From positions 2,989,353 to 3,053,352 of the forward strand of contig NC_011831.1 of the NCBI RefSeq assembly GCF_000021945.1: a stretch of 64,000 nt of DNA. The letters are read 5' to 3'. The notes beneath the pieces were generated by a model. The model had not been told where the DNA came from. It did no database searches and worked only from the letters and a program-made list of their open reading frames with translations. Both the position numbers and the translations under genes were made by a program. Each line of letters starts with the position of its first letter. Within the stretch, counting starts at the first letter, position 1. Source of the stretch: Chloroflexus aggregans DSM 9485. Lineage in GTDB: Bacteria; Chloroflexota; Chloroflexia; Chloroflexales; Chloroflexaceae. Shown piece by piece: positions 3,850 through 60,344 of the stretch.

Positions 3850-5133
3850 ATGTCTGACCACTTCGATGTCATCATTGTCGGTGATACTGCTGCCGAGGCA
3901 GCACTCGCTGCGCTGCTTGCTCGTGATGGTCGCGCTGTGCTGCTCGTAAGTGCCGGGACGACGCAGCCACAGGTGTGCTGGCGCGGTATGCAGTACGATA
4001 CCTTCCCTCCCCAGTGGGCCGGTCTGAATGACGGGCCATACGCTCGCATTGCCGCGCATGTAGGGGTTTACCTTCCGGTCGTCCGTCGTGAGCCGGCATG
4101 GCGGGTGCATCTACCTGCACGTACCATTGACGTGCCGAGCGATATGGGACAGTGGCGACGGACGCGCCGGGCACTCTTTCCGGCGCAGACCGATGCGGCA
4201 AGTCGCTTTTGGCAGGCCCAAGAGACCGCAGCAATGGCTGCGTTACGGTTGGCCGAGCAGTTTGATCCGCTCGCTCAAATTCAGGTGCTGCGTCAGCAAC
4301 GAATCACGGTGGCCGATATGCTGCGGCGCTATGGGTTGGTCGACCCGGCGTTACGTCACTTCATCGATACCATGCTCATGGCCTATGGTCTACCGGTCAG
4401 TGACCATTGCGCATGGTCGGCCGGTAGTGTCGCATTGCTGCCACCGGCAGAAACGTTAGTCGGTAATGCAGCGACATTGTCCCGGCTGTTCGTCGATGCG
4501 TTGCTACGCGCCGGTGGTGAATGGCGACGGCATCAACGTGCGGTGACGTTGCTCACGACGCCAACCCGAGTTGTGGGTATTGGTTTGACCGGTGGTGAAA
4601 GGGTCACAGCGCGGGTGGTTGTGCTTGGCGTTGCCGCGTGGCGATTAGCTAATCATCGCCATAACGCGCTGCCGGCATGGGCTACGAGCTACGTTGCCCT
4701 TGATAATGCACAGGTACCGGAATATCTCCCATTGTGTCAGATTGTAGACGTTGGGGGGACGCCGGTATTAATCAGCGTATCACCGACCGATGATCAAGCG
4801 GCTTGTCGTACTCTCACCGTTGCGATGCGGTTATCCGCCGCCGAATCGGCTCAGTTACGTTCCGCCTCTCGCCATAAACGCGGGCAATTCCGCTCTCAAC
4901 TTGCTAAGGTCTTGCAAGAAGCGATTGCTAAGGTGCTACCGCAGATAGCAACGACTCTGCCGGGCATTGAGGTTGTTGCGCCGTTGCCCGATCCGGTAGT
5001 GCCGAGTGCTCGACCGCCGGCAGCACAGGCAGGCTTGTGGCTGTTGCGTCCGCCGGCATGGTTACCGCCCGGCTATGATAATGGCAGTGGCACATTACGC
5101 CTCTACCGACAGTTGCGTGGCCTAATATGGTGA
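3850..5133 (+). CDS. FAD-dependent oxidoreductase-like protein with degenerate dinucleotide motif
   Basis: A 427-residue protein with the outline of the phytoene desaturase/amine oxidase-type flavoproteins: an N-terminal beta-alpha-beta start (FDVIIVG, then a small-residue helix, then AVLLVSAG), a middle substrate domain, and a second FAD-side segment around residues 225-260 (VDALLRAGGEWRRHQ, then VTARVVVLGVAAWRLA). The usual GxGxxG is replaced by GDTAAE, so two of three glycines are gone. FAD binding may be weakened, or the protein may have become structural or regulatory. It follows the small membrane protein by 7 bases. The fold assignment is moderate; substrate and activity are unknown. 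Confidence 0.65.
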   Translation: MSDHFDVIIVGDTAAEAALAALLARDGRAVLLVSAGTTQPQVCWRGMQYDTFPPQWAGLNDGPYARIAAHVGVYLPVVRREPAWRVHLPARTIDVPSDMGQWRRTRRALFPAQTDAASRFWQAQETAAMAALRLAEQFDPLAQIQVLRQQRITVADMLRRYGLVDPALRHFIDTMLMAYGLPVSDHCAWSAGSVALLPPAETLVGNAATLSRLFVDALLRAGGEWRRHQRAVTLLTTPTRVVGIGLTGGERVTARVVVLGVAAWRLANHRHNALPAWATSYVALDNAQVPEYLPLCQIVDVGGTPVLISVSPTDDQAACRTLTVAMRLSAAESAQLRSASRHKRGQFRSQLAKVLQEAIAKVLPQIATTLPGIEVVAPLPDPVVPSARPPAAQAGLWLLRPPAWLPPGYDNGSGTLRLYRQLRGLIW

Positions 5134-5221
5134 GGCGTGGCTCGTTATAATTAATATGGTTACTATGCGGCTGAATGCGTGTAGCATTTAACCACCCATC
5201 CAACACTGTGAGGAACAAAGC

Positions 5222-6403
5222 ATGGACGATGTAGTCATTGTGAGTGCGGTACGTACACCGATCGGACGCTTCAATGGCGCCTATAGTGGGTTGAGCGCTA
5301 TTGACCTCGGTGCTGCTGCCGTCCAGGCGGCGGTGCAGCGCGCCGGTATCGAACCGGTCATGATCGACGAATGTATTATGGGATGCGTCGTTACTGCTGG
5401 GTTGGGGCAATCACCGGCCCGACAGGCGGCTTTACGCGCCGGTTTACCGGAAACGGTTGGTGGTTTGACCGTGAACAAGGTGTGTGGAAGTGGCCTCAAG
5501 GCGGTAATGGTAGGGACTGCTCTGATCAAAGCCGGTGAGGCTGAGGTGCTGGTAGCCGGTGGTATGGAGCATATGAGCGGTGGCCCTTACCTATTACCTC
5601 AAGCGCGGCATGGGTACCGACTCGGTCATGGTCAAATTATTGATGCAGTTGTTCACGATGGATTATGGTGCGCCTTCGAGAATCACCATATGGGCGCGGC
5701 TGCGGAATGGATTGCACGCACATTTCACGTTACCCGTGAACAGCAAGACAACTACGCATTGCAATCGCACCAGCGCGCGATTGCCGCGCAAGACAGTGGA
5801 GCGTTTAACGACGAGATTATCCCGGTGAAGGTAGCGGGGCCGAAGGGGCAAGTCAATGTGGTGACGGTTGACGAAGGGCCACGGCGTGATACGTCATTAG
5901 CTGCGTTGGCGAAGCTTAAACCGGCATTCGTTGCCGATGGCACGGTGACGGCGGGAAACGCGCCTGGCATCACCGATGGTGCTGCCGCGGTTGTCTTGAT
6001 GCGGGCCAGTCGTGCTGCCCAGCTAGGCTTGCAACCGTTGGCCCGTATTGGAGTTGCAGCGCAGGCTGCCGTGAAGCCGCTCGAAGTCTTTACGGCGCCC
6101 GCTTTTGCAATTGAACGGTTGATGAAACGCGCCGGGCGTACCTTTGACGATTACGATCTATTTGAGATTAATGAGGCCTTTGCAGCTCAGGTGATTGCCA
6201 ATCTGCACGCTCTGTCGCTCGATGCCGATCGGGTCAATGTGCATGGTGGTGCGATTGCGCTTGGGCATCCGATCGGTGCTAGTGGGACGCGAGTATTGGT
6301 AACACTCATCTCGGCGTTGCGGCAACGTGGTGGTAAGCGAGGTATTGCCGCACTCTGCCTTGGTGGTGGGGAAGCAGTCGCGTTAGAGGTCGAAGTCTTG
6401 TAA
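5222..6403 (+). CDS. Acetyl-CoA C-acetyltransferase (thiolase)
   Basis: A 393-residue cytoplasmic thiolase II that condenses or cleaves acetyl-CoA and acetoacetyl-CoA. All three catalytic motifs are present: the acyl-accepting Cys88 in NKVCGSGLKAV, His349 in GGAIALGHPIGASG and the C-terminal Cys379 in ALCLGGGEAV. Length and ends match the family. The ATG follows GAGGAA. A TATAAT hexamer lies at 5146-5151, 70 bases upstream, with no convincing -35. No polyhydroxyalkanoate or fatty-acid partner genes are adjacent, so the pathway (polymer synthesis, ketogenesis-type flux or beta-oxidation) cannot be told from context. Confidence 0.93.
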   Translation: MDDVVIVSAVRTPIGRFNGAYSGLSAIDLGAAAVQAAVQRAGIEPVMIDECIMGCVVTAGLGQSPARQAALRAGLPETVGGLTVNKVCGSGLKAVMVGTALIKAGEAEVLVAGGMEHMSGGPYLLPQARHGYRLGHGQIIDAVVHDGLWCAFENHHMGAAAEWIARTFHVTREQQDNYALQSHQRAIAAQDSGAFNDEIIPVKVAGPKGQVNVVTVDEGPRRDTSLAALAKLKPAFVADGTVTAGNAPGITDGAAAVVLMRASRAAQLGLQPLARIGVAAQAAVKPLEVFTAPAFAIERLMKRAGRTFDDYDLFEINEAFAAQVIANLHALSLDADRVNVHGGAIALGHPIGASGTRVLVTLISALRQRGGKRGIAALCLGGGEAVALEVEVL

Positions 6404-6416
6404 TCGGCGTTGGCGG

Positions 6417-7574
6417 TTAGTCGGTACGACACCGGCATACCGCCAACATGGTCAGATCATCGACAGGTTGCGGTTGGCCGGTATACATCATCACTGCCTG
6501 CTGGATGACATCAAGGCGAAGGGTTTGCTTGTAGGCTGTAGTGATGGTGCTGAGCAGTCGTCCCTCTCCAAACATCTCACCATTACGTGTGCGTGCCTCG
6601 GTGACACCGTCGGTGTAGGCAAAAAGGATGTCTCCTGCACGCAATGTGGTTGTCTCAATGGTAAAACGGGCATCTGCGATCCAACCGACAGCCGGCCCTG
6701 TGGTAATGAGGTGCGAAACGCTACCATCTGCTCTGATAATGAGCGGCTCTGGATGACCGGCGTTTACATACCGTGCAAGGTCACTCTGAGGCTCAAACAT
6801 AATACAGAAGATGGTCGAGAAGGTGCGGTTGGCGCGATGGTGACGGGCAATATACTCATTGGTCATTGCAACCGCACGTAGCGGATCGGTACCATTGGTC
6901 GCAGCTTGCTCGATAAATGCACGCAAGAGTGAGCGGGTCAGTGCCATAAACAATGCTGCGCCGACCCCTTTATCACACACATCCCCCAAAAAACAGACTA
7001 ACCGCTGGTCAGGCAAGAGAAAAGCATCGTAGAAATCACCGGCCACTTCCCGCGCCGGCACAAACGCAGCCGTAATTTCCCAACCGGTCAGGTGTGGTAA
7101 GCTGGTGGGTAAGAAGTCTGCTTGTGTCCGCCGGCCCAACTCTAGTTCGTAGCGAATAGCGTTGAGATACGCTTGTTCGCTATCGCGTAGCCTTTTTCGT
7201 TCGAGGCAGGCATTAATTTTCGCGTACAGCAGTGTTTGGTTGAAGGGCTTGGTTAAATAATCTTCGGCGCCTGCCTCGATACAACGTACCACGTCATCAA
7301 TTTCATTAATTGCCGAAATCACGATCACCGGAATGTGGTGGGTCTGGGGATTACGCTTGAGCTGATCGAGCACGGTGAACCCGTCCATTTCCGGCATCAT
7401 CAGATCGAGCAGAATGACATCGAAGGGTTCGCGTTGAGCGTATTCCAACCCTTGGCGACCATGAGAAGCAGTAGCTATGCTGTGTCCACGCCGTTCGAGC
7501 TGGCGGGTCAACAAATAGCGATTGTGTTCACTATCATCGATGATGAGGATCCGGCCGGTTAGTTGATCTGCCAT
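6417..7574 (-). CDS. Response regulator with PP2C-type (SpoIIE/RsbU) phosphatase output
   Basis: A 385-residue two-domain signalling protein. Residues 8-125 form a receiver domain with the acidic pair (IIDDSEHN), phospho-acceptor Asp57 in VILLDLMMPEMDG and the conserved Lys in LTKPF. A short coiled linker (about 125-150) leads to a PP2C/SpoIIE serine phosphatase domain with metal-binding aspartates in EVAGDFYDAF, GDVCDKGVGAA, YTDGVTEA and VDDLTMLAV. Such proteins dephosphorylate anti-sigma-factor antagonists of the STAS class when the receiver is phosphorylated. Three STAS proteins lie at 29.7-32.4 kb, but a functional link is only inference. It is convergent with the thiolase gene, with 13 bases between their stop codons. 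No histidine kinase is adjacent. Confidence 0.93.
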   Translation of the reverse strand: MADQLTGRILIIDDSEHNRYLLTRQLERRGHSIATASHGRQGLEYAQREPFDVILLDLMMPEMDGFTVLDQLKRNPQTHHIPVIVISAINEIDDVVRCIEAGAEDYLTKPFNQTLLYAKINACLERKRLRDSEQAYLNAIRYELELGRRTQADFLPTSLPHLTGWEITAAFVPAREVAGDFYDAFLLPDQRLVCFLGDVCDKGVGAALFMALTRSLLRAFIEQAATNGTDPLRAVAMTNEYIARHHRANRTFSTIFCIMFEPQSDLARYVNAGHPEPLIIRADGSVSHLITTGPAVGWIADARFTIETTTLRAGDILFAYTDGVTEARTRNGEMFGEGRLLSTITTAYKQTLRLDVIQQAVMMYTGQPQPVDDLTMLAVCRCRTD

Positions 7575-14665: not shown

Positions 14666-16696
14666 TTAAGCCGAAAGTGGAGGTGCTTCCGGCCACTCAA
14701 TCTCAACGGCTGGTGGTTCGGATAGGGTCGGGATCGGTAGTAACTCGAACTTCATCGGATCGATGGTAAATGGCATCGTTTGTACCTCGTTGGGTAGACG
14801 GGTATAGTCGAACGTTTCGTAGGCGCTATGCGCAACGCTAGGTTGATCGATAGTTTGATTGTTCAAGGTATACACGTTATCGCGATACCGCAAATCGTCA
14901 TGTCCGGCACCAACCGCTTTCGCCAACGCATCGTCGCTATCAACATAGTGACGAACTGTGACGGCTTGAGCATTGATCGAGGAAGGTACGTCACTCCATT
15001 CACCTGCCGGACGCACGGCACCTAAGGTAGTAACGCTGGCTAATCGGATGTTGCGTTGCGCCAATGCGGTCTGTACCTGCGGATCATTACTTAGCAGGAT
15101 GCACATGCCACCGCCCATGCTGTGTCCGGTAAGGTGAAGGGTACTACCTTCCGGCAGGTTCTCAATCAGGTCGAGCATCCGGCTACGTACTGTTTGGTAG
15201 TAAGCATTTTCTGCGACGCGCTCTTTGCCCTCAGCAGTGTTAATGACCGAAACAAGGCCGTTCGTGCCATACGCCATATTGTCCAGGTTAAGACCACTGA
15301 TTCCAACAACATATTCTGTTTCGCCGACCCGAGCAGCGCGCACCTCCTCGCTGAGGTACGGACTAATCAGGCTGTGGGCATTGGCCTGCAATGCAGCCGG
15401 CGTGATCCGATAGGGTTGAGTGGCATCAAGATTACACTCAAGCGGTGGAAAAACGGCTGTTGCCGAGACGTGACCATCTGGTTCGGCGTCTGGACCGGTT
15501 GTTGGGCGAGTCAATGGACCGAGTGATAAATTCATCCGGGCAGCATAATTAAGCTGCTCGAGCCGAATAGCCAGTTCGCGAATTTTATCCGGGGGTAGGT
15601 TCTCAAAAGCATTGATCCAAAGATCGTTTTCGAGTATTGCCAGTACCTCAACAGGATTAGAAACAGGTAGGCTTGGTCGCAGGCGATCAAGCTGTCCACT
15701 AGCTAACATTGCGAGTAAGGGAGAGGAAAGGATCAGCGTGGTTGCTAACGTACTGTATGGCCCCAGCCTCCATTTGAGAGACTGCCAATGCCGGGCGAAG
15801 CTGGTCACGATAGGCAATATCGTGTACAACTGTTGGTATTGCCCCACAATACTCGCACGCCGTTGAATCTGCTCGGCGAGATGTGAGAGAGACGGAGGTA
15901 CGTTTGTGACCAACCCCAAATCGGCGATAGGTACAGCGAAATGTCCCAACGAGTTGAAGGGGAGCGGCATAAACCGCATCAGCCACGCGATAGTGTGAAG
16001 CGGAGGCAGCTCTAATGTGGTAATGACCTCCAAGTGACCTATCGTGCGCCAGATGTAATAGCGATAGGGTATGGCGGCAAACGTACCCCAATGGTGTTGC
16101 CAGGCTAAGAGTGACGGATAATACAACAGTGCTTGCCGGTGAAGCTGTTGTCCAAATGCGCCAAACAAATGTCGTATGGTCGTTCCGGTCAATACCGACC
16201 AAGAGCGTGACAAATGCAAGGTTGGTGCAATCACTCTGCTGAACCACCCTGAAGTTGTCAGGGACGTGCGAAGTTGTGGTTGCCAACGTGTCGGAGAGCG
16301 TAGCTCCCAGATAACACGCAATGCCATCCTCGCACCGAGATCGAACGCCGTCCGGGCAAGTCGATGAGGTGACAGCATTGGTTGACGGCTATTGCCAACG
16401 ATGATAGGTAGACCGTTACTCAGGGTCCTGACGTGCAAAACACCTTGATCTGCCGCCTCTAATCGGTCAGCCGTCGTGCGCACCCAAGCTGCCAGATCAC
16501 CGATCGAGCGATAGTGTGCAAACAACTCGTCGGTCAATCCATGCACTGCGGGAACACTGTATTCACGGCAACGAGACTGAAACCGATTGAGTGTCGTTGA
16601 GAGATGGCCGGTTATTGCTTGCAAATGGTCGAGATCGGTAGTGACAACCGCAGCAAACCGGCGTAAATGCTCTGGAATAGCAGCGACGGTATTCAT
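14666..16696 (-). CDS. Lipase-like alpha/beta hydrolase with helical N-terminal region, probable type VII substrate
   Basis: A 676-residue protein. The first 90 residues are helical and resemble the WXG100/LXG leader region of type VII substrates (DHLQAITGHLSTTLNRF, then LAAWVRTTADRLEAAD). Residues about 110-345 are rich in Trp, His, Leu and Tyr, with several weakly hydrophobic helices. The C-terminal third is a class 3-type lipase domain: nucleophile Ser near 526 in LTGHSMGGGM, an acid in YVDSDDAL (near 588) and a His in VAHSAYETF (near 623). I chose the ATG at 16694-16696 because it overlaps the stop of the EspG-like gene as ATGA, pointing to coupled translation. It may be an exported effector or a membrane-remodelling lipase; no immunity gene is obvious unless the EspG-like protein fills that role. 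Confidence 0.82.
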   Translation of the reverse strand: MNTVAAIPEHLRRFAAVVTTDLDHLQAITGHLSTTLNRFQSRCREYSVPAVHGLTDELFAHYRSIGDLAAWVRTTADRLEAADQGVLHVRTLSNGLPIIVGNSRQPMLSPHRLARTAFDLGARMALRVIWELRSPTRWQPQLRTSLTTSGWFSRVIAPTLHLSRSWSVLTGTTIRHLFGAFGQQLHRQALLYYPSLLAWQHHWGTFAAIPYRYYIWRTIGHLEVITTLELPPLHTIAWLMRFMPLPFNSLGHFAVPIADLGLVTNVPPSLSHLAEQIQRRASIVGQYQQLYTILPIVTSFARHWQSLKWRLGPYSTLATTLILSSPLLAMLASGQLDRLRPSLPVSNPVEVLAILENDLWINAFENLPPDKIRELAIRLEQLNYAARMNLSLGPLTRPTTGPDAEPDGHVSATAVFPPLECNLDATQPYRITPAALQANAHSLISPYLSEEVRAARVGETEYVVGISGLNLDNMAYGTNGLVSVINTAEGKERVAENAYYQTVRSRMLDLIENLPEGSTLHLTGHSMGGGMCILLSNDPQVQTALAQRNIRLASVTTLGAVRPAGEWSDVPSSINAQAVTVRHYVDSDDALAKAVGAGHDDLRYRDNVYTLNNQTIDQPSVAHSAYETFDYTRLPNEVQTMPFTIDPMKFELLPIPTLSEPPAVEIEWPEAPPLSA

Positions 16697-19766: not shown

Positions 19767-19809
19767 AGCGCCGGTCGCGGTCGGGGGATTGCCCACCGCG
19801 ACCGGCGCT
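19767..19809 (+). terminator. Perfect 15-bp hairpin after the 16S unit
   Basis: AGCGCCGGTCGCGGT (19767-19781) pairs perfectly with ACCGCGACCGGCGCT (19795-19809) around a 13-base loop. It starts 8 bases after the processing stem. No T-run follows, so it may be a Rho-type stop, a stabilising end, or the first of the hairpins that fill the next 1.5 kb. Confidence 0.55.
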
Positions 19810-19850
19810 GTGGTGTTGTGTGGCGGTTCGCTCTGCTCCCCCCGCGTGAG

Positions 19851-21345
19851 GTCTGGCTTGCGGCAGTCGCCCTGCCGCACCCCGTAGCACATTGCGGCAA
19901 GGCCACTACCGCTCGCCACGGCGGGTATGGATTGCGACAGTTGTACTGCCGCACACCACAGCAATTGCTGCAAGTCACTGTCACCTGCTACAGTGGGCCT
20001 GAAATGCGGCAGTCGCACTGCCGCTCGTCACCGTAAACTGCGGCACGTCACTGCCGCCCGTCACAGCATCAGGTCCCAACTACAGCCATCAAACGGAAGT
20101 CTCACTCCCCGCGATTACCCTGTCACGTGCCGCACCCAAGCGTAGCGCCGGGCCGTATCGTGTGCAGGCGACAATGTGCGCTATCCCGGTGGTGCGGCAT
20201 CACGTCGCGGGAGCGTGCGGCGCCGGCACTGCGGATTGTGTGTGTTGCTCCCCCCGCGTGAGGTAGCACACCTCACGTCCAGCCACCACACAGCAGGTCT
20301 GGCTTGCCTTGCGACAGTCACCCTGCCGCTCGTCACCGCAAACTGCGACAGGCCACTGCCGCTCGTCACCGCAAACTGCGACAGGCCACTGCCGCCCGCC
20401 ACAGCACATTGCGGTAAGGCCACTGCCGCCCGCCACAGCGGGTATGGATTGCGGCAGTCGCCCTGCCGCACCCCACAGCACATTGCGGCAAGGCCACTGC
20501 CGCTCGCCACAGCACATTGCGGCAAGGCCACTGCCGCTCGCCACAGCACATTGCGGTAAGGCCACTGCCGCCCGCCACAGCATCAGGTTCCGACTACAGC
20601 CATCAAACGGAGGTCTCACTCCCCGCGACCACCACTGTCACGTGCCGCACCCAAGCGTAGCGCCGGGTCGCATCGTGTGCAGGCGACGATGTGCGCTATC
20701 CCGGTGGTGCAGCATCACGTCGCGGGAGCGTGCGGGGCCGGCACTACGGATTGTGTGTTGCTCCCCCCGCGTGAGGTAGGCACACCTCACGTCCAGCCAC
20801 CACACAGCAGGTCTGGCTTGCGGCAGGCCACTGCTGCACTCCACAGCACATTGCGATAAGGCCACTGCCGCTCGCCACGGCGGGTCTGGCTTGCGGCAGT
20901 CGCCCTGCCGCACCCCGTAGCACATTGCGGCAAGGCCACTACCGCTCGCCACGGCGGGTATGGATTGCGACAGTTGTACTGCCGCACACCACAGCAATTG
21001 CTGCAAGTCACTGTCACCTGCTACAGTGGGCCTGAAATGCGGCAGTCGCACTGCCGCTCGTCACCGTAAACTGCGGCACGTCACTGCCGCCCGTCACAGC
21101 ATCAGGTCCCAACTACAGCCATCAAACGGAAGTCTCACTCCCCGCGATTACCCTGTCACGTGCCGCACCCAAGCGTAGCGCCGGGCCGTATCGTGTTCAG
21201 GCGACAATGTGCGCTATCCCGGTGGTGCGGCATCACGTCGCGGGAGCGTGCGGTGCCGGCACTGCGGATTGTGTGTGTTGCTCCCCCCGCGTGAGGTAGC
21301 ACACCTCATGTCCAGTCACCACACAGCAGGTCTGGCTTGCGGCAG
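19851..21345 (+). repeat. Hairpin-rich repeat tract with a ~458-bp direct duplication
   Basis: No gene is supported here. Segment 19851-20308 recurs at 20884-21341 (offset 1,033 bases) with only a few changes, and part of it recurs a third time at about 20580-20820. The unit is built of short stem-loops of the form GCGGCA-loop-TGCCGC whose loops differ while stems persist. The CCCCCCGCGTGAGG block recurs at about 19838, 20254, 20764 and 21286. Apparent long reading frames in several frames on both strands are by-products of the repeats. Confidence 0.85.
20309..20580 (+). repeat. 34-bp tandem repeats within the tract
   Basis: ACATTGCGG starts at 20480, 20514 and 20548, giving an exact 34-base period with near-identical units; looser units precede them from 20330. 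Each contains a GCGGCA...TGCCGC stem. There are no unique spacers, so it is not CRISPR. Confidence 0.8.
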
Positions 21346-27066: not shown

Positions 27067-29394
27067 CTAATCGGCCGATGCCGGTGCTTGAGCGATCTCT
27101 TTAAGCGTCTCGCTTTCACGCTTGCTCTGCCAGATTGCCCAGATCAGCGCGGCGACACAGAGAATCATCGCGACAATCACGCCCGGACTACCGGGTTTGA
27201 TCGTCACCACAATCGGCGCAATGATCAGTGCCACCAGATTGATCACCTTAATCATCGGGTTCAAAGCAGGGCCGGCAGTATCCTTAAGCGGATCACCGAC
27301 GGTATCGCCAACTACAGCCGCTTTATGCGGTTCGCTGTGTTTGCCGCCAAAATTACCTTCCTCGATGTACTTCTTGGCGTTATCCCAGGCGCCACCGGCA
27401 TTTGCTTGGAACACTGCCATCAATTGGCCGGTGAGGATGATCCCGGCGAGAAAACCACCCAACGCCTCGACACCGAGCGTAAAGCCGACGATAATCGGCA
27501 CCAACACGGCAATCAGGCCAAGGCTGATCAGCTCTTTCTGCGCTGCCGTCGTAGAAATCTGAACAGCACGCGCGTAATCGGGCTGTACCTTGCCCTCCAT
27601 CAAACCGGGGATACGGAACTGCCGCCGCACTTCGTTGACGATCTGTGCTGCGGCCCGCGATACGGCGCGGATGGTCAGCGAGGAGAAGAGGAAGGGTACC
27701 GCACCACCAATGAGGAGACCGATGAACACGGTAGGGGCAGCGACGTTAATCGACGAGAGCAGCTCGATACCCTGCTCGCCCTTGGCGATCATTTGCTGTA
27801 ACACCTTATTGACATCGGTGAAATAAGAGCCATAGAGCGCTACTGCCGCGATAACAGCCGAGCCAATTGCAATCCCCTTCGTGACCGCCTTTGTCGTATT
27901 GCCCACCGCGTCGAGGTCATCCATCACGTTGCGCGCATTCTTATCAAGCCCGGCCATTTCGCCGATCCCGTTAGCGTTGTCGGAGATGGGGCCGAAGCTG
28001 TCCATCGAAATCGTATTACCGGTTAGCAGCAACATACCGATACCGGTCAACGAAACCCCGTAGAGAATCGCCGTAAACTGGGTAGCCGCCGGTTCACCGG
28101 AGTAGATCAACACCGACGTAAAGATCGAGGCCGAGATGACGAGAATTGCCCAGACGCTGCTCTCCATACCGAGCGCCAAGCCCGACAAGATATTCGTCGC
28201 CGACCCGGTTTGTGAAGCCTTTGAGGTTTCTTTCACCGGGCTGAAGTGGGTGCTGGTAAAGTATTCGGTCAGCTTGTCGAGAACGACGGCCAGGACCACA
28301 CCGGAGAGGGTGGCAAAGAACGGTCGCCAGTCGACGATACCGGTTGCTTCGTCAACCATAAAGATGGGAGTTGCCGCAGCGCTGGCCGCAATAGCCAAAC
28401 CGGCAGCAATGTAGAAGCCACGGTTCATCGCTGCCATTGCATTGCGCTTACGTTCATCGGTGGTGACGAACAGATTGCCGATGACCGAGGCAACCACGCC
28501 AATCGCGCGGAGCACCAGCGGGAAGATGATGAAGCGCAGATCATACGCCCCGTCACCGATGGTCCCCACAACCGCATCACCCAGCACCAGGCCGAGGATC
28601 AACGCCGACACCAGCGTCACTTCAAAACTCTCAAAAACGTCAGCCGCCATACCGGCGCAGTCACCAACGTTATCACCGACCAGATCGGCGATTACGGCTG
28701 CATTGCGCGGGTCGTCTTCAGGGATGCCGGCCTCAACCTTGCCGACAAGGTCGGCGCCGACGTCAGCCGCTTTGGTGTAGATACCGCCACCGACGCGCAT
28801 GAAGAGTGCGATGAGCGAACCACCGAAGCCAAAGCCGAGCAGGGCGTCGGGTGCAGCAATCCCGAAGACCATAAAGATCAGGGTACCACCGAGTAGGCCG
28901 AGGCCCACGGTAAGCATCCCGGTCACCGAGCCGGATTTGTACGCGACCTGAAGGGCCGGGTTATACCCTTTGCGTGAAGCCGCGGCAACGCGCACATTCC
29001 CTTCAACGGCCACGTTCATCCCGACGTAGCCGACAGCATAACTGAACAGCGACCCCATGAGAAAGGCCACTGCTCGTCCGATCGCTACCCAAAGAGTAGC
29101 TGCCTCTTCACTGCCGAACCGCTCAACCGCTTCGGTTGTGGGGGGGATGATGAACACACTTGCTGCCAGGACAAAGGTGAGAATGACGATGAGGATAGAG
29201 ATTGTACGGAATTGTTGGCTCAGATAAGCGTTCGCGCCGGTCTTGATAAATCCCCAGACTTCGCGCATTTTCGGCGTACCGGTATCCTGCGCAAGGATTT
29301 GGCTGCGAATGAAGAAGGCGTACCCGATACCAAGTAGCGAGACGACGAGGACGGCCCAGACCGCAAGACTTTGGACGGCGTTCAGATCCTGCAT
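27067..29394 (-). CDS. hppA: K+-independent proton-translocating membrane pyrophosphatase
   Basis: A 775-residue integral membrane enzyme that couples pyrophosphate hydrolysis to H+ export, with about 16 transmembrane segments. The catalytic loop motif [11 protein letters not shown] and the [16 protein letters not shown] motif are present. [10 protein letters not shown] carries Lys where K+-dependent enzymes have Ala (GNTTAA), which marks the K+-independent, H+-pumping class. I chose the ATG at 29392-29394, after AAGGAG; an upstream start would add 22 residues. It recovers energy from PPi released in biosynthesis and phototrophic metabolism. It is monocistronic with its own promoter and terminator. 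Confidence 0.96.
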
Positions 29395-29515
29395 GACCCC
29401 AACTCCTTCGTTGCACGAATGCACGACCCGATGAAACTGCCGGCGCGGCGCGCAGGGCACGGGGCTTGCGCGGGGCGCTGGTGTTTGGGAAAATCTCCTA
29501 CCGTAGACGTGGATT

Positions 29516-29734: not shown

Positions 29735-30616
29735 TCACCGAGCGCTCGTTTCGGTTGTCATCACCGGCTTAATCACCCGCCCAAGTTGTTTAAACGCCAG
29801 TTCAATACCGTTTTGCAGATGAGCACCGATGAGAATACTGTGTAAATCGACGCCGAGCTGGACCATGGTTTGGGCAATTTCCGGGCCGATCCCGACCAGA
29901 ATGACCTGTGCGCCGATCAATTGGGCGGCGCGTGCCGTCTGCAAGAGGTAATTGGCGACGGCGGTATCGATGACGGGTACGCCGGTAATATCGATGATGA
30001 CGATATCCGATTGGCGTTCGGCGATGGCGGTCAATAAGCGTTCCATGATCTGGCCGGCGCGAAAGCTATCGATAGCGCCGACCAGCGGTAGGACCAAAAT
30101 GCCTTCGTACAGCGGCAAGATAGGTGTACTCAGCTCGCGGATGGTCTGTTGTTGTGATGTGATCTGTTCGTGTTGATCGCGAAGCTGATGGTACAATCCT
30201 CGGTACGTCACGTCAAAGCTGTTCACCATCGCTCGCTGAAAATACGCTAACAGATCCGCCACCAGGCGCACCGTAGCAATGGTGCAATCAGATCGTTGAG
30301 CAGCAAAAGCTTCCAGCGCTTCCCACGTCAATGCGCGAAAATTGTTTATTGCCACTAGCACATCATTCAGGGAGAGACCGCCGAGGGCACGCATCTCCCC
30401 CACGGCTTCGGCGTGGGCTAAAAATGATGCGAGATCTTGGGTGCCGATGGCTTCAGCCAACTCCTCGATGGTTGTGCTCATCGTGCTCAGCATATCCTCT
30501 CGCTCGAGGTTAGCGTATCCCTCACTCTGTTCCTGCACACGCCGCGCCAATTCAGCAAGTATCTCTGTGCGGCGATTGAGGATAAAGTCTTGTAGATCGG
30601 TAAAAATACTGGTCAT
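29735..30616 (-). CDS. RsbR-like STAS-domain regulator, copy 3 of 3
   Basis: A 293-residue stressosome-type regulator. Residues 1-165 are an all-helical RsbRD-like sensor domain (FILNRRTEILAELARRVQEQ onwards); a coiled linker with QQQTIRELSTPILPLYEG leads into a C-terminal STAS domain (about 175-280) holding IIDITGVPVIDTAVANYLL with the Thr/Ser positions phosphorylated by RsbT-type kinases. The ATG follows GAGGAGG. It is the last of three tandem paralogues. Its end PVMTTETSAR is unique. No rsbT or rsbS gene is in the window, so a partner phosphatase such as the one at 6417-7574 is only a suggestion. Confidence 0.87.
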   Translation of the reverse strand: MTSIFTDLQDFILNRRTEILAELARRVQEQSEGYANLEREDMLSTMSTTIEELAEAIGTQDLASFLAHAEAVGEMRALGGLSLNDVLVAINNFRALTWEALEAFAAQRSDCTIATVRLVADLLAYFQRAMVNSFDVTYRGLYHQLRDQHEQITSQQQTIRELSTPILPLYEGILVLPLVGAIDSFRAGQIMERLLTAIAERQSDIVIIDITGVPVIDTAVANYLLQTARAAQLIGAQVILVGIGPEIAQTMVQLGVDLHSILIGAHLQNGIELAFKQLGRVIKPVMTTETSAR

Positions 30617-31960
30617 GCGACCTCCTCGTCGCTGCTGTCTTCTTTGGCTCGGTCACCTTAGACCGGTCACCTTAGATTAGATACCTTTCCATCGATGGCT
30701 TAATTGCCCGTCCAATGCGGCTCAGCGCTAATTCAAGACCGTTTTGTAAACTTGCTCCGATGATAATGTTACTTAAATCGACGCCGAGCTGGACCATGGT
30801 TTGGGCAATTTCCGGGCCGATCCCGACCAGAATGACCTGTGTGCCGATCAATTGGGCGGCGCGTGCCGTCTGCAAGAGGTAATTGGCGACGGCGGTATCG
30901 ATGACGGGTACGCCGGTAATATCGATGATGACGATATCCGATTGGCGTTCGGCGATGGCGGTCAATAAGCGTTCCATGATCTGGCCGGCGCGAAAGCTAT
31001 CGATAGCGCCGACCAGCGGTAGAACTAAAATGCCTTCGTACAGCGGCAAGATAGGTGTACTCAGCTCGCGGATGGTCTGTTGTTGAGCCGCAATCCGGTC
31101 AGCCTGATCGTGGATTTGTGCTTGCACTTCACGGTAGACCTGGCTAAAGCTAGTAAGCAAAGTCTGTCCAAAGGCTTGCAGGATATCTTCCACCCGCCGA
31201 ACGTGCGAGACGGTAACGACCTTACGATCGCGGTCATACGCTTCTATCGTATCCCAAGCGACATGTCGCAGTTCATTAAGAGCGGCGAACATGTCACCGG
31301 CAATAAAACCGCTCGCTGCCCGTGCTTCCCCTATAGCACGAGCGTGGGCAAGAAAGGGCTGTACATCTTCGGTAGCGACGGCATGCCATAGGGTTTGTAA
31401 TGATGTCGTCACCGCCTGCAACAGGGCCGCCCGATCCATAGCGGCATAGTTTGCCTGTTGAGCGCGCAGGCGGTCGGTGAAGATTTCGGCGATAGTGGGG
31501 AGCCGTGCTTCATTGAAGGCAGCGATGTCGGCAAGAATCTTTGGCATAGCAGTGTTGTCGGAGAACCGAGTCAGCGTATTGCATACCCTAATTGCTGTAA
31601 CGCCAACTCGATCCCGGCTTGCAAGTTAGCACCAATCCGAATCCCGCGTAGATCGACGCCGAGCTGGACAATAGTTTGGGCAATTTCCGGGCCGATCCCG
31701 ACCAGAATGACCTGTGCGCCGATCAATTGGGCGGCGCGTGCCGTCTGCAAGAGGTAATTGGCGACGGCGGTATCGATGACGGGTACGCCGGTAATATCGA
31801 TGATGACGATATCCGATTGGCGTTCGGCGATGGCGGTCAATAAGCGTTCCATGATCTGGCCGGCGCGAAAGCTATCGATAGCGCCGACCAGCGGTAGAAC
31901 TAAAATGCCTTCGTACAGCGGCAAGATAGGTGTACTCAGCTCGCGGATGGTCTTTTGTTG
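29848..31960 (-). repeat. Near-identical ~307-bp STAS-coding block in three copies
   Basis: The block occupies 29848-30154, 30779-31085 and 31654-31960, each in the same phase of its gene. Differences are only a handful of bases even at third codon positions, while flanking sensor-coding DNA does not align. Period is about 875-930 bases. This is the pattern of recent gene conversion. Confidence 0.9.
30672..31547 (-). CDS. RsbR-like STAS-domain regulator, copy 2 of 3
   Basis: A 291-residue paralogue of its neighbours. The helical sensor (FNEARLPTIAEIFTDRLRAQ, then LWHAVATEDVQPFLAHARAI) differs clearly from the other two copies, while about 100 residues of the STAS domain are identical apart from one change (IGTQ instead of IGAQ). 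It lies 55 bases upstream of copy 3 and 23 bases downstream of copy 1, so all three are probably one transcript. Divergent sensors with a shared output suggest different input signals read by one partner set. Confidence 0.87.
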   Translation of the reverse strand: MPKILADIAAFNEARLPTIAEIFTDRLRAQQANYAAMDRAALLQAVTTSLQTLWHAVATEDVQPFLAHARAIGEARAASGFIAGDMFAALNELRHVAWDTIEAYDRDRKVVTVSHVRRVEDILQAFGQTLLTSFSQVYREVQAQIHDQADRIAAQQQTIRELSTPILPLYEGILVLPLVGAIDSFRAGQIMERLLTAIAERQSDIVIIDITGVPVIDTAVANYLLQTARAAQLIGTQVILVGIGPEIAQTMVQLGVDLSNIIIGASLQNGLELALSRIGRAIKPSMERYLI

Positions 31961-32416
31961 GGCTTCGATCTGCTCGGCCTGATCGCGTAATTCTTTTTGG
32001 AGTGACAGCATCGCCTGACTATAACCGAGCAGTAAAAGGCGATTGAACTCGTGAATCGCATCCTCAAACCGGCGCACATCATCAAGTGATACCCGATCGC
32101 TGCCAAAGGCATCGAGTTCTTGCCAGCAAAACTCACGGATGCGGTTTACAACGATCATCATGTCGTCGAGGGAGAGGCCCATTCGGGCACGACGTTCGCC
32201 AATCTGCGGTGCCCATTCGTTGACCGGCCCACTATCATTCTCACCGAAAAGCGCGCAGATCGTCTCAACCGAACGTTGCAGGGCTGGGCTTAATTCGTGG
32301 GCAGGAATAGCTGCATAGCCACTGCTATCGGCCTGGACAGCTTGGCGCAAGCGCTCTCGTGTTTGCGGTAAGCGCTCGCGAATGAACGTAGCGAGATCGG
32401 TTAGAGTGGTGCTCAT
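31571..32416 (-). CDS. RsbR-like STAS-domain regulator, copy 1 of 3
   Basis: A 281-residue paralogue and first gene of the triplet. The sensor contains FIRERLPQTRERLRQAVQAD and GLSDD-type helices (MGLSLDDMMIVVNRIREFCW), again unlike the others. The STAS core repeats LPLYEGILVLPLVGAIDSF and IIDITGVPVIDTAVANYLL exactly. It carries TIVQLGVDL where the others have TMVQLGVDL. The end, LQAGIELALQQLGYAIR, is unique. It begins 18 bases after the proS stop codon and may be read from the proS transcript. Confidence 0.87.
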   Translation of the reverse strand: MSTTLTDLATFIRERLPQTRERLRQAVQADSSGYAAIPAHELSPALQRSVETICALFGENDSGPVNEWAPQIGERRARMGLSLDDMMIVVNRIREFCWQELDAFGSDRVSLDDVRRFEDAIHEFNRLLLLGYSQAMLSLQKELRDQAEQIEAQQKTIRELSTPILPLYEGILVLPLVGAIDSFRAGQIMERLLTAIAERQSDIVIIDITGVPVIDTAVANYLLQTARAAQLIGAQVILVGIGPEIAQTIVQLGVDLRGIRIGANLQAGIELALQQLGYAIR

Positions 32417-32434: not shown

Positions 32435-33877
32435 CTAATACGCACGGGCAAAGATCACCTGGCGGTCGGTTTCACGACCGGTATAGACACAACGGCCCAC
32501 CGTCCCCGGTTGTTCGAGCGGAATACAGCGGATGGTCGCTCGCGTCTCCTCTTGAATACGCTTTTCGTCGGCGGTACTGCCGGCCCAATAGGCACGGGCG
32601 AAGCCGCGTTCGATCTGTTCTTTAAGCTCGTCATAGGTTGTGACATCGGCGGTACGGGCTTCGCGGAAAGCGAGCGCGCGCTGGAACAGGCCGGTCTGCA
32701 TTTCGGCCAGCAGGGCCTCGATCCGTTCGGTTAGTCCGGCTTGAGGCACAAAACTCTTGCCGGCTTTGCCTGGCATATCGCGGCGCGCGAGGGCTACTGT
32801 CTCTTTGGCGACATCCTTCGGCCCGATCTCGATCCGCACCGGCACCCCTTTCAGTTCCCACTCGTTAAACTTATAGCCGGGGCTATAGGTGTCGCGATCG
32901 TCAACCTTAAAGCGCAACCGGCCCTTCCACGCGGCGGTCATACGGTTGACGGCTTCCATCACTGCGCTCCGCTCTTCATCGTTCTTGTAAATTGGCACCA
33001 CGACCACCTGAATAGGTGCAAGACGCGGTGGCAGCACCAAGCCTTCATCATCCGAGTGAGTCATGATCAGAGCGCCGATCAGGCGTGTGCTTACGCCCCA
33101 GCTCGTGGTCCACGCATACTGGATGGTGTTATGTTGATCGGTAAAGGTGATGTCAAATGCGCGGGCGAAGTTCTGACCGAGGTTATGCGAGGTACCGGCT
33201 TGGAGGGCGCGACCATCTTGCATCATTGCTTCGATGCAATAGGAACGGAGTGCGCCGGGGAACTTCTCTTTCTCAGTCTTGAGACCGCGGATGACCGGTA
33301 CGGCCATCTCTTTCTCCACGAAATCGGCATAGACCTCGTGGAGAATCCGTAGGGTCTCTTCTTCGGCCTCGGCCTCGGTGGCGTGAGCGGTATGGCCCTC
33401 TTGCCACCAGAACTCGGCGGTACGGAGGAATGGGCGGGTACGCATTTCCCAGCGCATGACATTGGCCCACTGATTGTAGAGGAGGGGTAGATCGCGGTAC
33501 GAACGGATCCACTTGCTGTAGAAATAGCCGATGATCGTTTCGCTGGTCGGGCGAATCACATACGGTTCGGCCAATTCTTCCCCGCCGGCGCGGGTCACTT
33601 CGGCCACTTCAGGCGCGAAGCCCTCGACGTGCTCGGCCTCTTTCATGATGAAGCTCTTGGGAATAAGCAGCGGGAACTGGACATTCGCATGACCGGTTGC
33701 CTTGATCCGGTCATCGAGGGCGCGCTGCATCAATTCCCAGATGGCCCAACCATGGGCCTTGACTACAATACACCCACGCACGACCTCGGCGACTTCGGCC
33801 AGATCGGCTTCACGCACAATATCGAGATACCACTGGTTATAATCAACACTGCGTTGGGTAATAACCTCTTTTGGCAT
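32435..33877 (-). CDS. proS: Prolyl-tRNA synthetase, archaeal/eukaryote-like form
   Basis: A 480-residue class II synthetase that charges tRNA(Pro). Class II motifs are visible: VQFPLLIPKSFIMKEAEHVE, RPTSETIIGYFYSKWI (motif 2 region), RTRPFLRTAEFWWQEGHTAH and GVSTRLIGALIMTHSDDEG (motif 3). There is no ~180-residue editing insertion between motifs 2 and 3, and a C-terminal extension ending VIFARAY is present. Both mark the short archaeal/eukaryotic-type ProRS also found in Deinococcus, Thermus and Chloroflexus. The gene ends just before the STAS triplet. Confidence 0.96.
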   Translation of the reverse strand: MPKEVITQRSVDYNQWYLDIVREADLAEVAEVVRGCIVVKAHGWAIWELMQRALDDRIKATGHANVQFPLLIPKSFIMKEAEHVEGFAPEVAEVTRAGGEELAEPYVIRPTSETIIGYFYSKWIRSYRDLPLLYNQWANVMRWEMRTRPFLRTAEFWWQEGHTAHATEAEAEEETLRILHEVYADFVEKEMAVPVIRGLKTEKEKFPGALRSYCIEAMMQDGRALQAGTSHNLGQNFARAFDITFTDQHNTIQYAWTTSWGVSTRLIGALIMTHSDDEGLVLPPRLAPIQVVVVPIYKNDEERSAVMEAVNRMTAAWKGRLRFKVDDRDTYSPGYKFNEWELKGVPVRIEIGPKDVAKETVALARRDMPGKAGKSFVPQAGLTERIEALLAEMQTGLFQRALAFREARTADVTTYDELKEQIERGFARAYWAGSTADEKRIQEETRATIRCIPLEQPGTVGRCVYTGRETDRQVIFARAY

Positions 33878-38754: not shown

Positions 38755-38826
38755 ACGCAAAGACGGTAACGCAACGGCGTAGAGGGTGCCAAGGCGCGGG
38801 TAGCGCTCACGCAACGAGCGCCACCC

Positions 38827-39217
38827 GTAGGGGCACGGCACTGCCCCACGAAGGGCAAAAGGGCGTAGGGGCACGGCGCACCGTGCCCCCACGAAGGGCG
38901 AAAGGGCGTAGGGGCACGGCACGCCGTGCCCACGAAGGGCAAAAGGGCGTAGGGGCACGGCACGCCGTGCCCACGAAGGGCGAAAGGGCGTAGGGGCACG
39001 GCGCACCGTGCCCCCACGAAGGGCGAAAGGGCGTAGGGGCACGGCACGCCGTGCCCACGAAGGGCAAAAGGGCGTAGGGGCACGGCACTGCCCCACGAAG
39101 GGCAAAAGGGCGTAGGGGCACGGCACTGCCCCACGAAGGGCAAAAGGGCGTAGGGGCACGGCGCACCGTGCCCCCACGAAGGGCGAAAGGGCGTAGGGGC
39201 ACGGCACGCCGTGCCCC
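38827..39217. repeat. Tandem array of 10 GTAGGGGCACGGC units (38-43 bp)
   Basis: The gap between the convergent pullulanase and htpG genes holds ten units, each a hairpin GTAGGGGCACGGC...CCGTGCCCC followed by ACGAAGGGC(A/G)AAAGGGC. Three unit types differ in the hairpin: A (38 bp, CACTGCCCC), B (43 bp, GCACCGTGCCCCC) and C (41 bp, CACGCCGTGCCC). Their order is A B C C B C A A B C, the last cut short. Reading frames found here on either strand are repeat artefacts. Confidence 0.93.
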
Positions 39218-50000: not shown

Positions 50001-50045
50001 CCCTACCATCTCTGCGCCCTCTGCGTCTTTGCGTTTGCGCCTTGA

Positions 50046-50300
50046 GCCGCACGTCCGTGCGGCGCGATATTCTTCAAGCCGTTAGAGTCGGTACAAGCCT
50101 AGACCTACATCTCTGCGCCTTGAGCCGCACGTCCGTGCGGCGCGATATTCTTCAAGCCGTTAGAGTCGGTACAAGCCTAGACCTACATCTCTGCGCCTTG
50201 AGCCGCACGTCCGTGCGGCGCGATATTCTTCAAGCCGTTAGAGTCGGTACAAGCCTAGACCTACATCTCTGCGCCTTGAGCCGCACGTCCGTGCGGCTTT
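50046..50300. repeat. 78-bp tandem repeat, three full copies plus a fourth start
   Basis: GCCGCACGTCCGTGCGGC begins at 50046, 50124, 50202 and 50280, giving an exact 78-base period. The copies look identical. Each begins with a perfect 7-bp hairpin (GCCGCAC, GTCC loop, GTGCGGC). The region lies at the 3' ends of two convergent genes; a frame open across it is a repeat artefact. Confidence 0.95.
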
Positions 50301-59099: not shown

Positions 59100-59209
59100 A
59101 GTGTGTCCTTGTCGCTCAAGATGATTGTAGACATGTTGGCCGGAAACGGTATTTCGTCAAGCTGCTTGACGGGCGGCGTAGGCACTTCTACCATGGCATG
59201 GTCACTCAA

Positions 59210-60310
59210 AGGGCGCTAACGCAAAGACCGCAGAGGGAGCAAAGGACGCAAAGATTGCTGACGCAGAGAGTGTCACCCGTCGGGGCACGGCGGTGCCGTG
59301 CCCCCACGCAGGGCGGTAGGGGCACGGCATGCCGTGCCGCCACCAAGGGCAAAGGACGTTCACGCAAAGGGGGCAAAGGGGGCAAAGATCAGGATGTTGA
59401 CGCACAGCGCGCCACCCGTCGGGGCACGGCGGTGCCGTGCCGCTACGCAGGGCGGTAGGGGTACGGAGATGCCGTGCCCACACGCAGGGCGGTAGGGGTA
59501 CGGCGATGCCGTGCCCCCACGCAGGGCTGTAGGGGCACGGCGATGCCGTGCCCCCACGCAGGGCAAAGGTCGCTAACGCAAAGGGCGCAAAGGGGGCAAA
59601 GATCGCAAAGAGATGTTGACGCACAGCGCGCCACCCGTCGGGGTACGGCGGTGCCGTGCCGCCACGCAGGGCGGTAGGGGCACGGCGGTGCCGTGCCGCC
59701 ACCAAGGGCAAAGGACGCTCACGCAAAGGGGGCAAAGGGGGCAAAGATCGCAAAGAGATGTTGACGCACAGCGCGCCACCCGTCGGGGTACGGCGGTGCC
59801 GTGCCGCCACGCAGGGCGGTAGGGGCACGGCGGTGCCGTGCCGCCACCAAGGGCAAAGGACGCTCACGCAAAGGGGGCAAAGGGGACAAAGGTCGCAAAG
59901 GGCGTTGACGCACAGCGCGCCAGCCGTCGGGGTACGGCGGTGCCGTGCCGCCACGCAGGGCGGTAGGGGCACGGCGGTGCCGTGCCGCCACCAAGGGCAA
60001 AGGACGTTCACGCAAAGGGGGCAAAGGGGGCAAAGATCAGGATGTTGACGCACAGCGCGCCAGCCGTCGGGGTACGGCGGTGCCGTGCCGCCACGCAGGG
60101 CGGTAGGGGCACGGCGGTGCCGTGCCGCCACCAAGGGCAAAGGACGTTCACGCAAAGAGGGCAAAGGGGGCAAAGATCAGGATGTTGACGCACAGCGCAC
60201 CACCCGTCGGGGTACGGCGGTGCCGTGCCGCCACGCAGGGCGGTAGGGGTACGGCGGGGCCGTGCCCACACGAAGGGAAAAGGACGCTAACACAAAGGGC
60301 GCAAAGAGTT
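59210..60310. repeat. 1.1-kb tandem array of ~140-146 bp composite units
   Basis: GTTGACGCACAGCGC anchors at about 59396, 59614, 59760, 59904, 60044 and 60184, so the unit is 140-146 bases (218 in one copy with extra hairpins). Each unit joins two hairpins of the GTAGGGGCACGGCGGTGCCG type to an ACGCAAAGGGGGCAAAGG stretch. Frames up to 323 codons open on either strand are artefacts of the repeat. Confidence 0.93.
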
Positions 60311-60344
60311 GCAAATGATGTAATACCCATACAAGGACAATGCG

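Follow-up and report, generated by a model that had tools for sequence, protein, structure and literature searches.

Results

Three tandem genes beside a proS-type ORF

The stretch of DNA analysed here (the window, 64,000 nucleotides) lies at bases 2,989,353-3,053,352 of a genome assembled as one contig (4,684,931 bases), designated G000 in our genome set. Its minus strand carries three tandem genes, each encoding a helical sensor followed by a STAS domain: gene C (31571..32416, 281 aa, Pfam STAS E=7.9e-20), which is the first of the array, then gene B (30672..31547, 291 aa, E=4.1e-20) and gene A (29735..30616, 293 aa, E=6.2e-20). On the same strand, 18 nt upstream of gene C, lies an ORF which we take to be a prolyl-tRNA synthetase gene (proS, 32435..33877), and 274 nt downstream of gene A another one, presumably encoding a membrane pyrophosphatase-like protein (27067..29460).

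The order proS-C-B-A, with proS adjoining the array, was conserved in all six other genus genomes read. Orthologues of gene C were present in all six other well-assembled genus genomes, and orthologues of gene B were also identified in the genus. The pyrophosphatase-like gene followed the array in the four other genus genomes where it was sought and where the stretch reached it; it did not appear in the stretches from G006 or G004, the G004 contig ending inside A. Outside the genus, six genomes of the family have a full-length relative (G008, G012, G013, G014, G020, G022). This relative lies beside proS in five of them, the exception being G020 (stretch L057), where proS was not found next to it; in G008 two copies lie beside proS. 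As a single relative beside proS is found in family genomes outside the genus, we infer that the array grew from a single gene in or before the genus ancestor.

Genes A, B and C resemble stressosome RsbR

The best solved relatives of gene A were Listeria RsbR chains (E=7e-35). Listeria T175 and T209 align with Ser184 and Thr218 of A; among 15 aligned sequences, Ser184 was invariant and Thr218 was found in at least 90%, the A copy of G005 having an Ala at the second phospho-acceptor position. In Listeria RsbR, T175 is described as priming activation, and T209 as tuning composition (preprint, PMC12154155). In the AlphaFold2 model of gene A (mean pLDDT 80.8, pTM 0.54), the sensor, mostly above pLDDT 90, is entirely helical and is followed by a STAS fold. 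With Foldseek, the best match of this model was the RsbR chain of 7b0u (E=2.5e-13, over the whole chain). RsbR has a non-haem globin-like N-terminal sensor; matches of the model to globin-coupled sensor domains were weak (E 0.015-0.026). The three sensors matched Pfam RsbRD_N below threshold, and NCBIfam gave nothing above its curated cut-offs for A, B, C or the RsbS and RsbT candidates described next.

An RsbS-like protein of 143 aa is encoded in the window's genome and matches solved RsbS at E=1.2e-37. One such gene per genome was found in 8/8 genus genomes, at 96-99% identity to the window-genome query, and in all eight it adjoins a HATPase_c_2 gene of the RsbT kind (frames were read for G000). 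The best solved match of the latter protein was SpoIIAB (E=2.4e-4), and we are less sure of the RsbT name. In the window's genome the two genes overlap by 14 nt and lie far from the RsbR array (L085:6763-7582, which is G000:C1:914762-915581). This genome has 34 STAS matches and 13 SpoIIE-type phosphatase matches, which is a large partner-switching network. The other RsbR-like STAS domains that were read from it share 37-57% protein identity with the core of A, B and C. Judging by their sequence, the STAS genes found close to other HATPase_c_2 genes are presumably of the SpoIIAA/RsbV kind. Judged from sequence and model, A, B and C thus look like stressosome RsbR, and the parallel with a stressosome drawn in the original prediction is supported by this homology together with the conserved RsbS/RsbT-like pair. 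Since a single RsbS stands beside an RsbT-like gene in 8/8 genomes, one core common to several RsbR around one RsbS appears plausible.

A STAS block of 312 nt is nearly identical in the three genes

Three 300-nt copies of a direct repeat, with spacings of 931 and 875, run through the array. Codon alignment and this repeat family together placed a homogenised block at 29843..30154 in gene A (codons 155-258), 30774..31085 in gene B and 31649..31960 in gene C, all on the minus strand, with coordinates derived from codon numbers. In A it includes the two residues, Ser184 and Thr218, that align with phospho-acceptors of RsbR. Of the 312 aligned bases in the block, 305 are shared by the three genes, leaving 7 variable sites, and the 180 nt of A codons 176-235 are identical in all three. 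The approximately 25 last codons of STAS lie outside the block and differ among copies.

Silent sites behave likewise. Silent differences (pS) in the core (A codons 155-254) were 0.026 for AB, 0.039 for AC and 0.013 for BC, versus 0.786, 0.739 and 0.770 in the sensor (codons 4-146), and the first 150 alignment columns showed 30-33% protein identity among A, B and C. In all three pairs, a GENECONV-type site-permutation test gave P=0.0002, the lowest value that 5000 shuffles allow. It had been claimed from the window that some 307 bases are near-identical, silent sites included, in genes whose sensors share little; block alignment, pS and permutation test all agree with this.

Within the block the variable sites form a mosaic: B and C agree against A at codons 174-175, and A and B agree against C at codons 250-251. 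This pattern indicates at least two tracts. The genus consensus C core is matched most closely by the core of gene C; the window cores of A, B and C are 0-2 residues away from that consensus, and A cores elsewhere 3-10 away. C or B is therefore the likelier though unproven donor to A.

Sensor halves and cores have different histories

Sensors and cores were compared in seven genus genomes including the window's; the pS values omit the A copy of G004, inside which the contig ends, and G002, where the sequence covers only the first part of the C copy. Window cores differed from orthologous cores at 49-77% of silent sites (17 comparisons, six genomes). Paralogous cores of the window are thus far closer to each other (pS 0.013-0.039) than to their orthologues (0.49-0.77), as expected if the prediction of gene conversion was right.

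The trees agree with this. Sensor halves sorted into clean A, B and C orthologue clades (protein-tree support 0.984, 0.997 and 1.00, respectively), and the core DNA tree grouped A+B+C of G000, B+C of G004 and B+C of G006. With IQ-TREE, forcing A/B/C orthology cost next to nothing on the sensor (delta logL 0.0003) and was rejected on the core (delta logL 192, AU p=4e-30), while grouping the sensors by genome cost 1842 log-likelihood units. Strict by-genome grouping of the cores was also rejected (AU p=0.0098), being broken by several cores, among them the A copies of G001 and G006. Together, the divergence at silent sites and the conflict between sensor and core trees strongly support the predicted gene conversion.

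Conversion was proposed to be ongoing and to keep the copies identical. The identity holds for the window's genome and not for the genus: core pS between copies was 0.34-0.78 in G001, G003, G005, G006 and G007, with the G001 cores and the A core of G006 among the diverged ones (0.51-0.78). Conversion is recurrent, and such diverged cores, especially of copy A, make it episodic rather than continuous. Copy A has drifted in other species, which suggests that the cores need not be strictly identical. At the protein level the core varied little everywhere (pN 0.004-0.08), versus pN 0.44-0.55 between sensor paralogues.

In G004, a metagenome-assembled genome (MAG), the B and C cores differed at 10% of silent sites. 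Its contig breaks inside the A core, the final 103 nt being exactly those of B, and another of its contigs starts with 100 nt, of which 99 match C. In the proS tree G000 stood with G001, G005 and G007, and G004 stood apart, so that the events in G000 and G004 were probably independent. Over the 19 within-genome pairs of the seven genomes, the permutation test gave P<0.01 (uncorrected) in nine; P was at most 0.001 in six, namely all three pairs of G000, BC of G004, BC of G005 and AB of G007.

Other tandem pairs and controls

Outside this first locus, 18 tandem pairs hand-picked among the matches listed, which is no full census, were analysed: three were clearly recent, one was marginal and 14 were not.

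The second locus is a tandem pair with membrane sensors, for which counts omit the X copy of G001, its STAS part being out of frame. Core pS within the genome was 0.12 in G003 and 0.012 in G006, and 0.56-0.78 to orthologues; no recent event was found in the other two of the four pairs (G007 and G005, with 50% and 56% silent differences). Core orthology was rejected (AU p=4e-72). By-genome grouping of the N-terminal part was rejected weakly (AU p=0.04), because here the tract extends over the coiled linker upstream of STAS. The X copy of G001 (L097, about 1200-2400) loses its frame within STAS, either by an error of the MAG or as a decaying gene.

At the third locus, core pS in G005 was 0.088, versus 0.29-0.30 between G005 and G007 orthologues, and G007, with 22.6% silent differences, was the marginal case. 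N-terminal parts showed the opposite order, 66-68% between paralogues versus 30-34% between orthologues. Four tandem pairs of another genus of the order kept distinct P and Q core clades, with core pS 0.46-0.50, although their STAS proteins are 91-92% identical. Eight further tandem pairs gave no sign of homogenisation, with STAS third-position identity of 32-54%.

As a control, near repeats were also searched in 20 evenly spaced stretches of the window's genome, 400 kb in all, too small a sample for a rate. Most were short-period arrays or repeats inside long genes, and the nearest comparable cases were a 2.4-kb duplication (87.6%) and a 166-nt pair (91.6%). The members of this pair lie 2.5 kb apart (L121:13031-13192 and 15535-15698), with no obvious shared gene. 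Two tandem STAS-bearing genes of 703 aa each were also observed (L087:2023-4134 and 4376-6487), with about 83% DNA identity. Their similarity spans almost the whole length, unlike the domain-limited cases, and we take them to be of the sulphate-permease type.

Discussion

These comparisons give good support to a recent gene conversion that was confined to the STAS domain. Our reading, to which we give a probability of about 85%, is that the locus is an RsbR-type tandem array in which ancient sensor types are joined to a STAS core repeatedly converted between neighbours, most recently in this species. Identity at silent sites requires a recent common descent of the bases, which makes recombination between neighbours the simplest agent.

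The following course of events would account for the data. An ancestral single gene beside proS would have given rise to three copies no later than the genus ancestor, after which the helical, possibly globin-like sensor halves would have diverged into three fixed types. Selection on the protein would hold the STAS output core similar, and homologous recombination, in the form of non-reciprocal conversion, would repeatedly copy this core between adjacent genes. Tract ends would fall where DNA similarity drops, on the upstream side in the coiled linker and on the downstream side close to the last STAS strand and helix. The expected outcome is three subunits that differ in input but present a near-identical surface to RsbS, to RsbT and to one another. 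Tracts are probably confined to STAS since DNA similarity suffices for recombination there alone, through protein constraint. Protein-level selection for a common docking surface, which had been offered as an alternative to conversion, does not suffice to account for silent sites that are identical, though it may maintain the similarity on which conversion depends. What the sequences show directly is a homogenisation restricted to the core, its recency, its recurrence, the orthology of the sensors, the homology to RsbR and the presence of RsbS/RsbT-like genes. We infer recombination as the agent; co-assembly of the proteins, their functional interchangeability and any selective benefit are likewise conjectural.

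Whether homogenisation is itself favoured is a separate matter. Conversion could equally be a neutral by-product, constraint keeping the STAS DNA recombinable while sensors are too diverged, with no benefit of its own; this possibility accepts conversion, differs on its cause only, and has in our opinion even odds. Low core pN (0.004-0.08) next to sensor paralogue pN of 0.44-0.55 fits it well, as do tracts that stop where similarity drops. Homogenised pairs are moreover adjacent, the other RsbR-like STAS domains staying 37-57% identical to the core, and copy A diverges freely in several species, which speaks against a benefit. That conversion recurs at three unlinked loci within a single protein family, however, suggests selection without proving it, and the order-level P/Q pairs stay without recent conversion despite STAS proteins that are 91-92% identical. 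A bolder proposal, which we hold as tentative and rather doubtful, is that the RsbR of this genus form cassette-like families: selection would favour copying of the output domain time and again, at several unlinked loci, so that new sensor halves would remain plug-compatible with the single, almost invariant RsbS and its RsbT.

An assembly artefact, in which reads from three similar repeats were collapsed into one consensus, has a low probability. Near-identical repeats are prone to collapse, and the MAG G004 does break at this place. However, the window's genome is a single contig, 7 variable sites persist in the block, and the single-contig G003 and G006 show the same pattern at the second locus. 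A block of 312 nt is also shorter than the usual Sanger or long read. As judged from assembled sequence, collapse is thus unlikely. A constraint acting on the nucleotides themselves, through an overlapping antisense gene or an RNA element, is less probable again: an antisense ORF of 67-74 aa does exist in each block, but orthologous blocks differ at 49-77% of silent sites, which means that the bases are free to change, and this candidate was rejected. Least probable of all, a recent triplication of the whole gene followed by fast sensor divergence would agree with the tandem order and was ruled out by sensors that are orthologous as A, B and C in seven genomes, so that triplication predates the radiation of the genus, while the cores became identical after the species had split.

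Conversion between neighbours thus remains our preferred reading, and parts of it have known counterparts. RsbRA-RsbRD of Bacillus and RsbR of Listeria resemble A, B and C in having a variable helical sensor, a conserved C-terminal STAS domain and two phospho-acceptor positions; there too, as in the window's genome, several paralogues per genome occur with RsbS and RsbT-like genes. Unlike them, A, B and C are in tandem, lie far from rsbS-rsbT, have cores near-identical even at silent sites, and have sensors that match RsbRD_N below threshold. Work on Bacillus RsbR hybrids describes both halves as shaping the response, C-terminal halves affecting its onset (PMC9765535).

The closest parallel comes from mammalian TLR1 and TLR6, tandem receptors described as homogenised at the signalling end independently in several species, with orthologous N-terminal parts (PMC2077338). 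The same combination of a homogenised signalling end and orthologous N-terminal halves is met in A, B and C, although TLR1/TLR6 are eukaryotic immune receptors and the present genes are bacterial, of the stressosome type, with several unlinked loci of one family. In Campylobacter jejuni, Tlp2, Tlp3 and Tlp4 are reported to have identical signalling domains and sensor parts about 30% identical; these are chemoreceptors, and the passages concerned describe them through domain duplication and divergence, not through a silent-site conversion test (PMC9769880). Concerted evolution over hundreds of millions of years is described as very rare in prokaryotes, with 26 genes (PMC6053082). Recurrent conversion between paralogues is common to that set and to A, B and C, and many of the 26 are reported to act in protein complexes; the source passages treat them gene by gene (PMC6053082), whereas homogenisation is confined here to one domain of sensor genes.

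In the open-access literature searched we found no report of gene conversion or concerted evolution of RsbR, and nothing on a stressosome in Chloroflexus or on STAS proteins of Chloroflexus aggregans; the one paper matching RsbR and concerted evolution concerns, by its listing, a Martelella plasmid. Domain-limited conversion was already known elsewhere, as in TLR1/TLR6; the RsbR case appears to be a new one, and its recurrence within one family is unusual. It bears on how a sensory hub such as the stressosome gains inputs while its shared core survives. Genomes with and without a recently copied output domain are natural domain swaps for testing the modularity of RsbR sensors, and full-length RsbR protein trees mix two histories.

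Other repeats in the window

Four further repeat regions were observed in the window. At 59207-60318 lies an array of units of about 140 nt (5.7 copies in one row, 94% matches) with short GC-rich palindromic pieces, and 43-nt units at 38826-39217 contain pieces like GGGGCACGGC of that array. A 78-nt unit is present in 3.4 perfect copies at 50036-50297. Repeats are nested at 19786-21289, where a 300-nt stretch, made up of units of 34, 74 and 142 nt, recurs at 100% identity 1033 nt further on.
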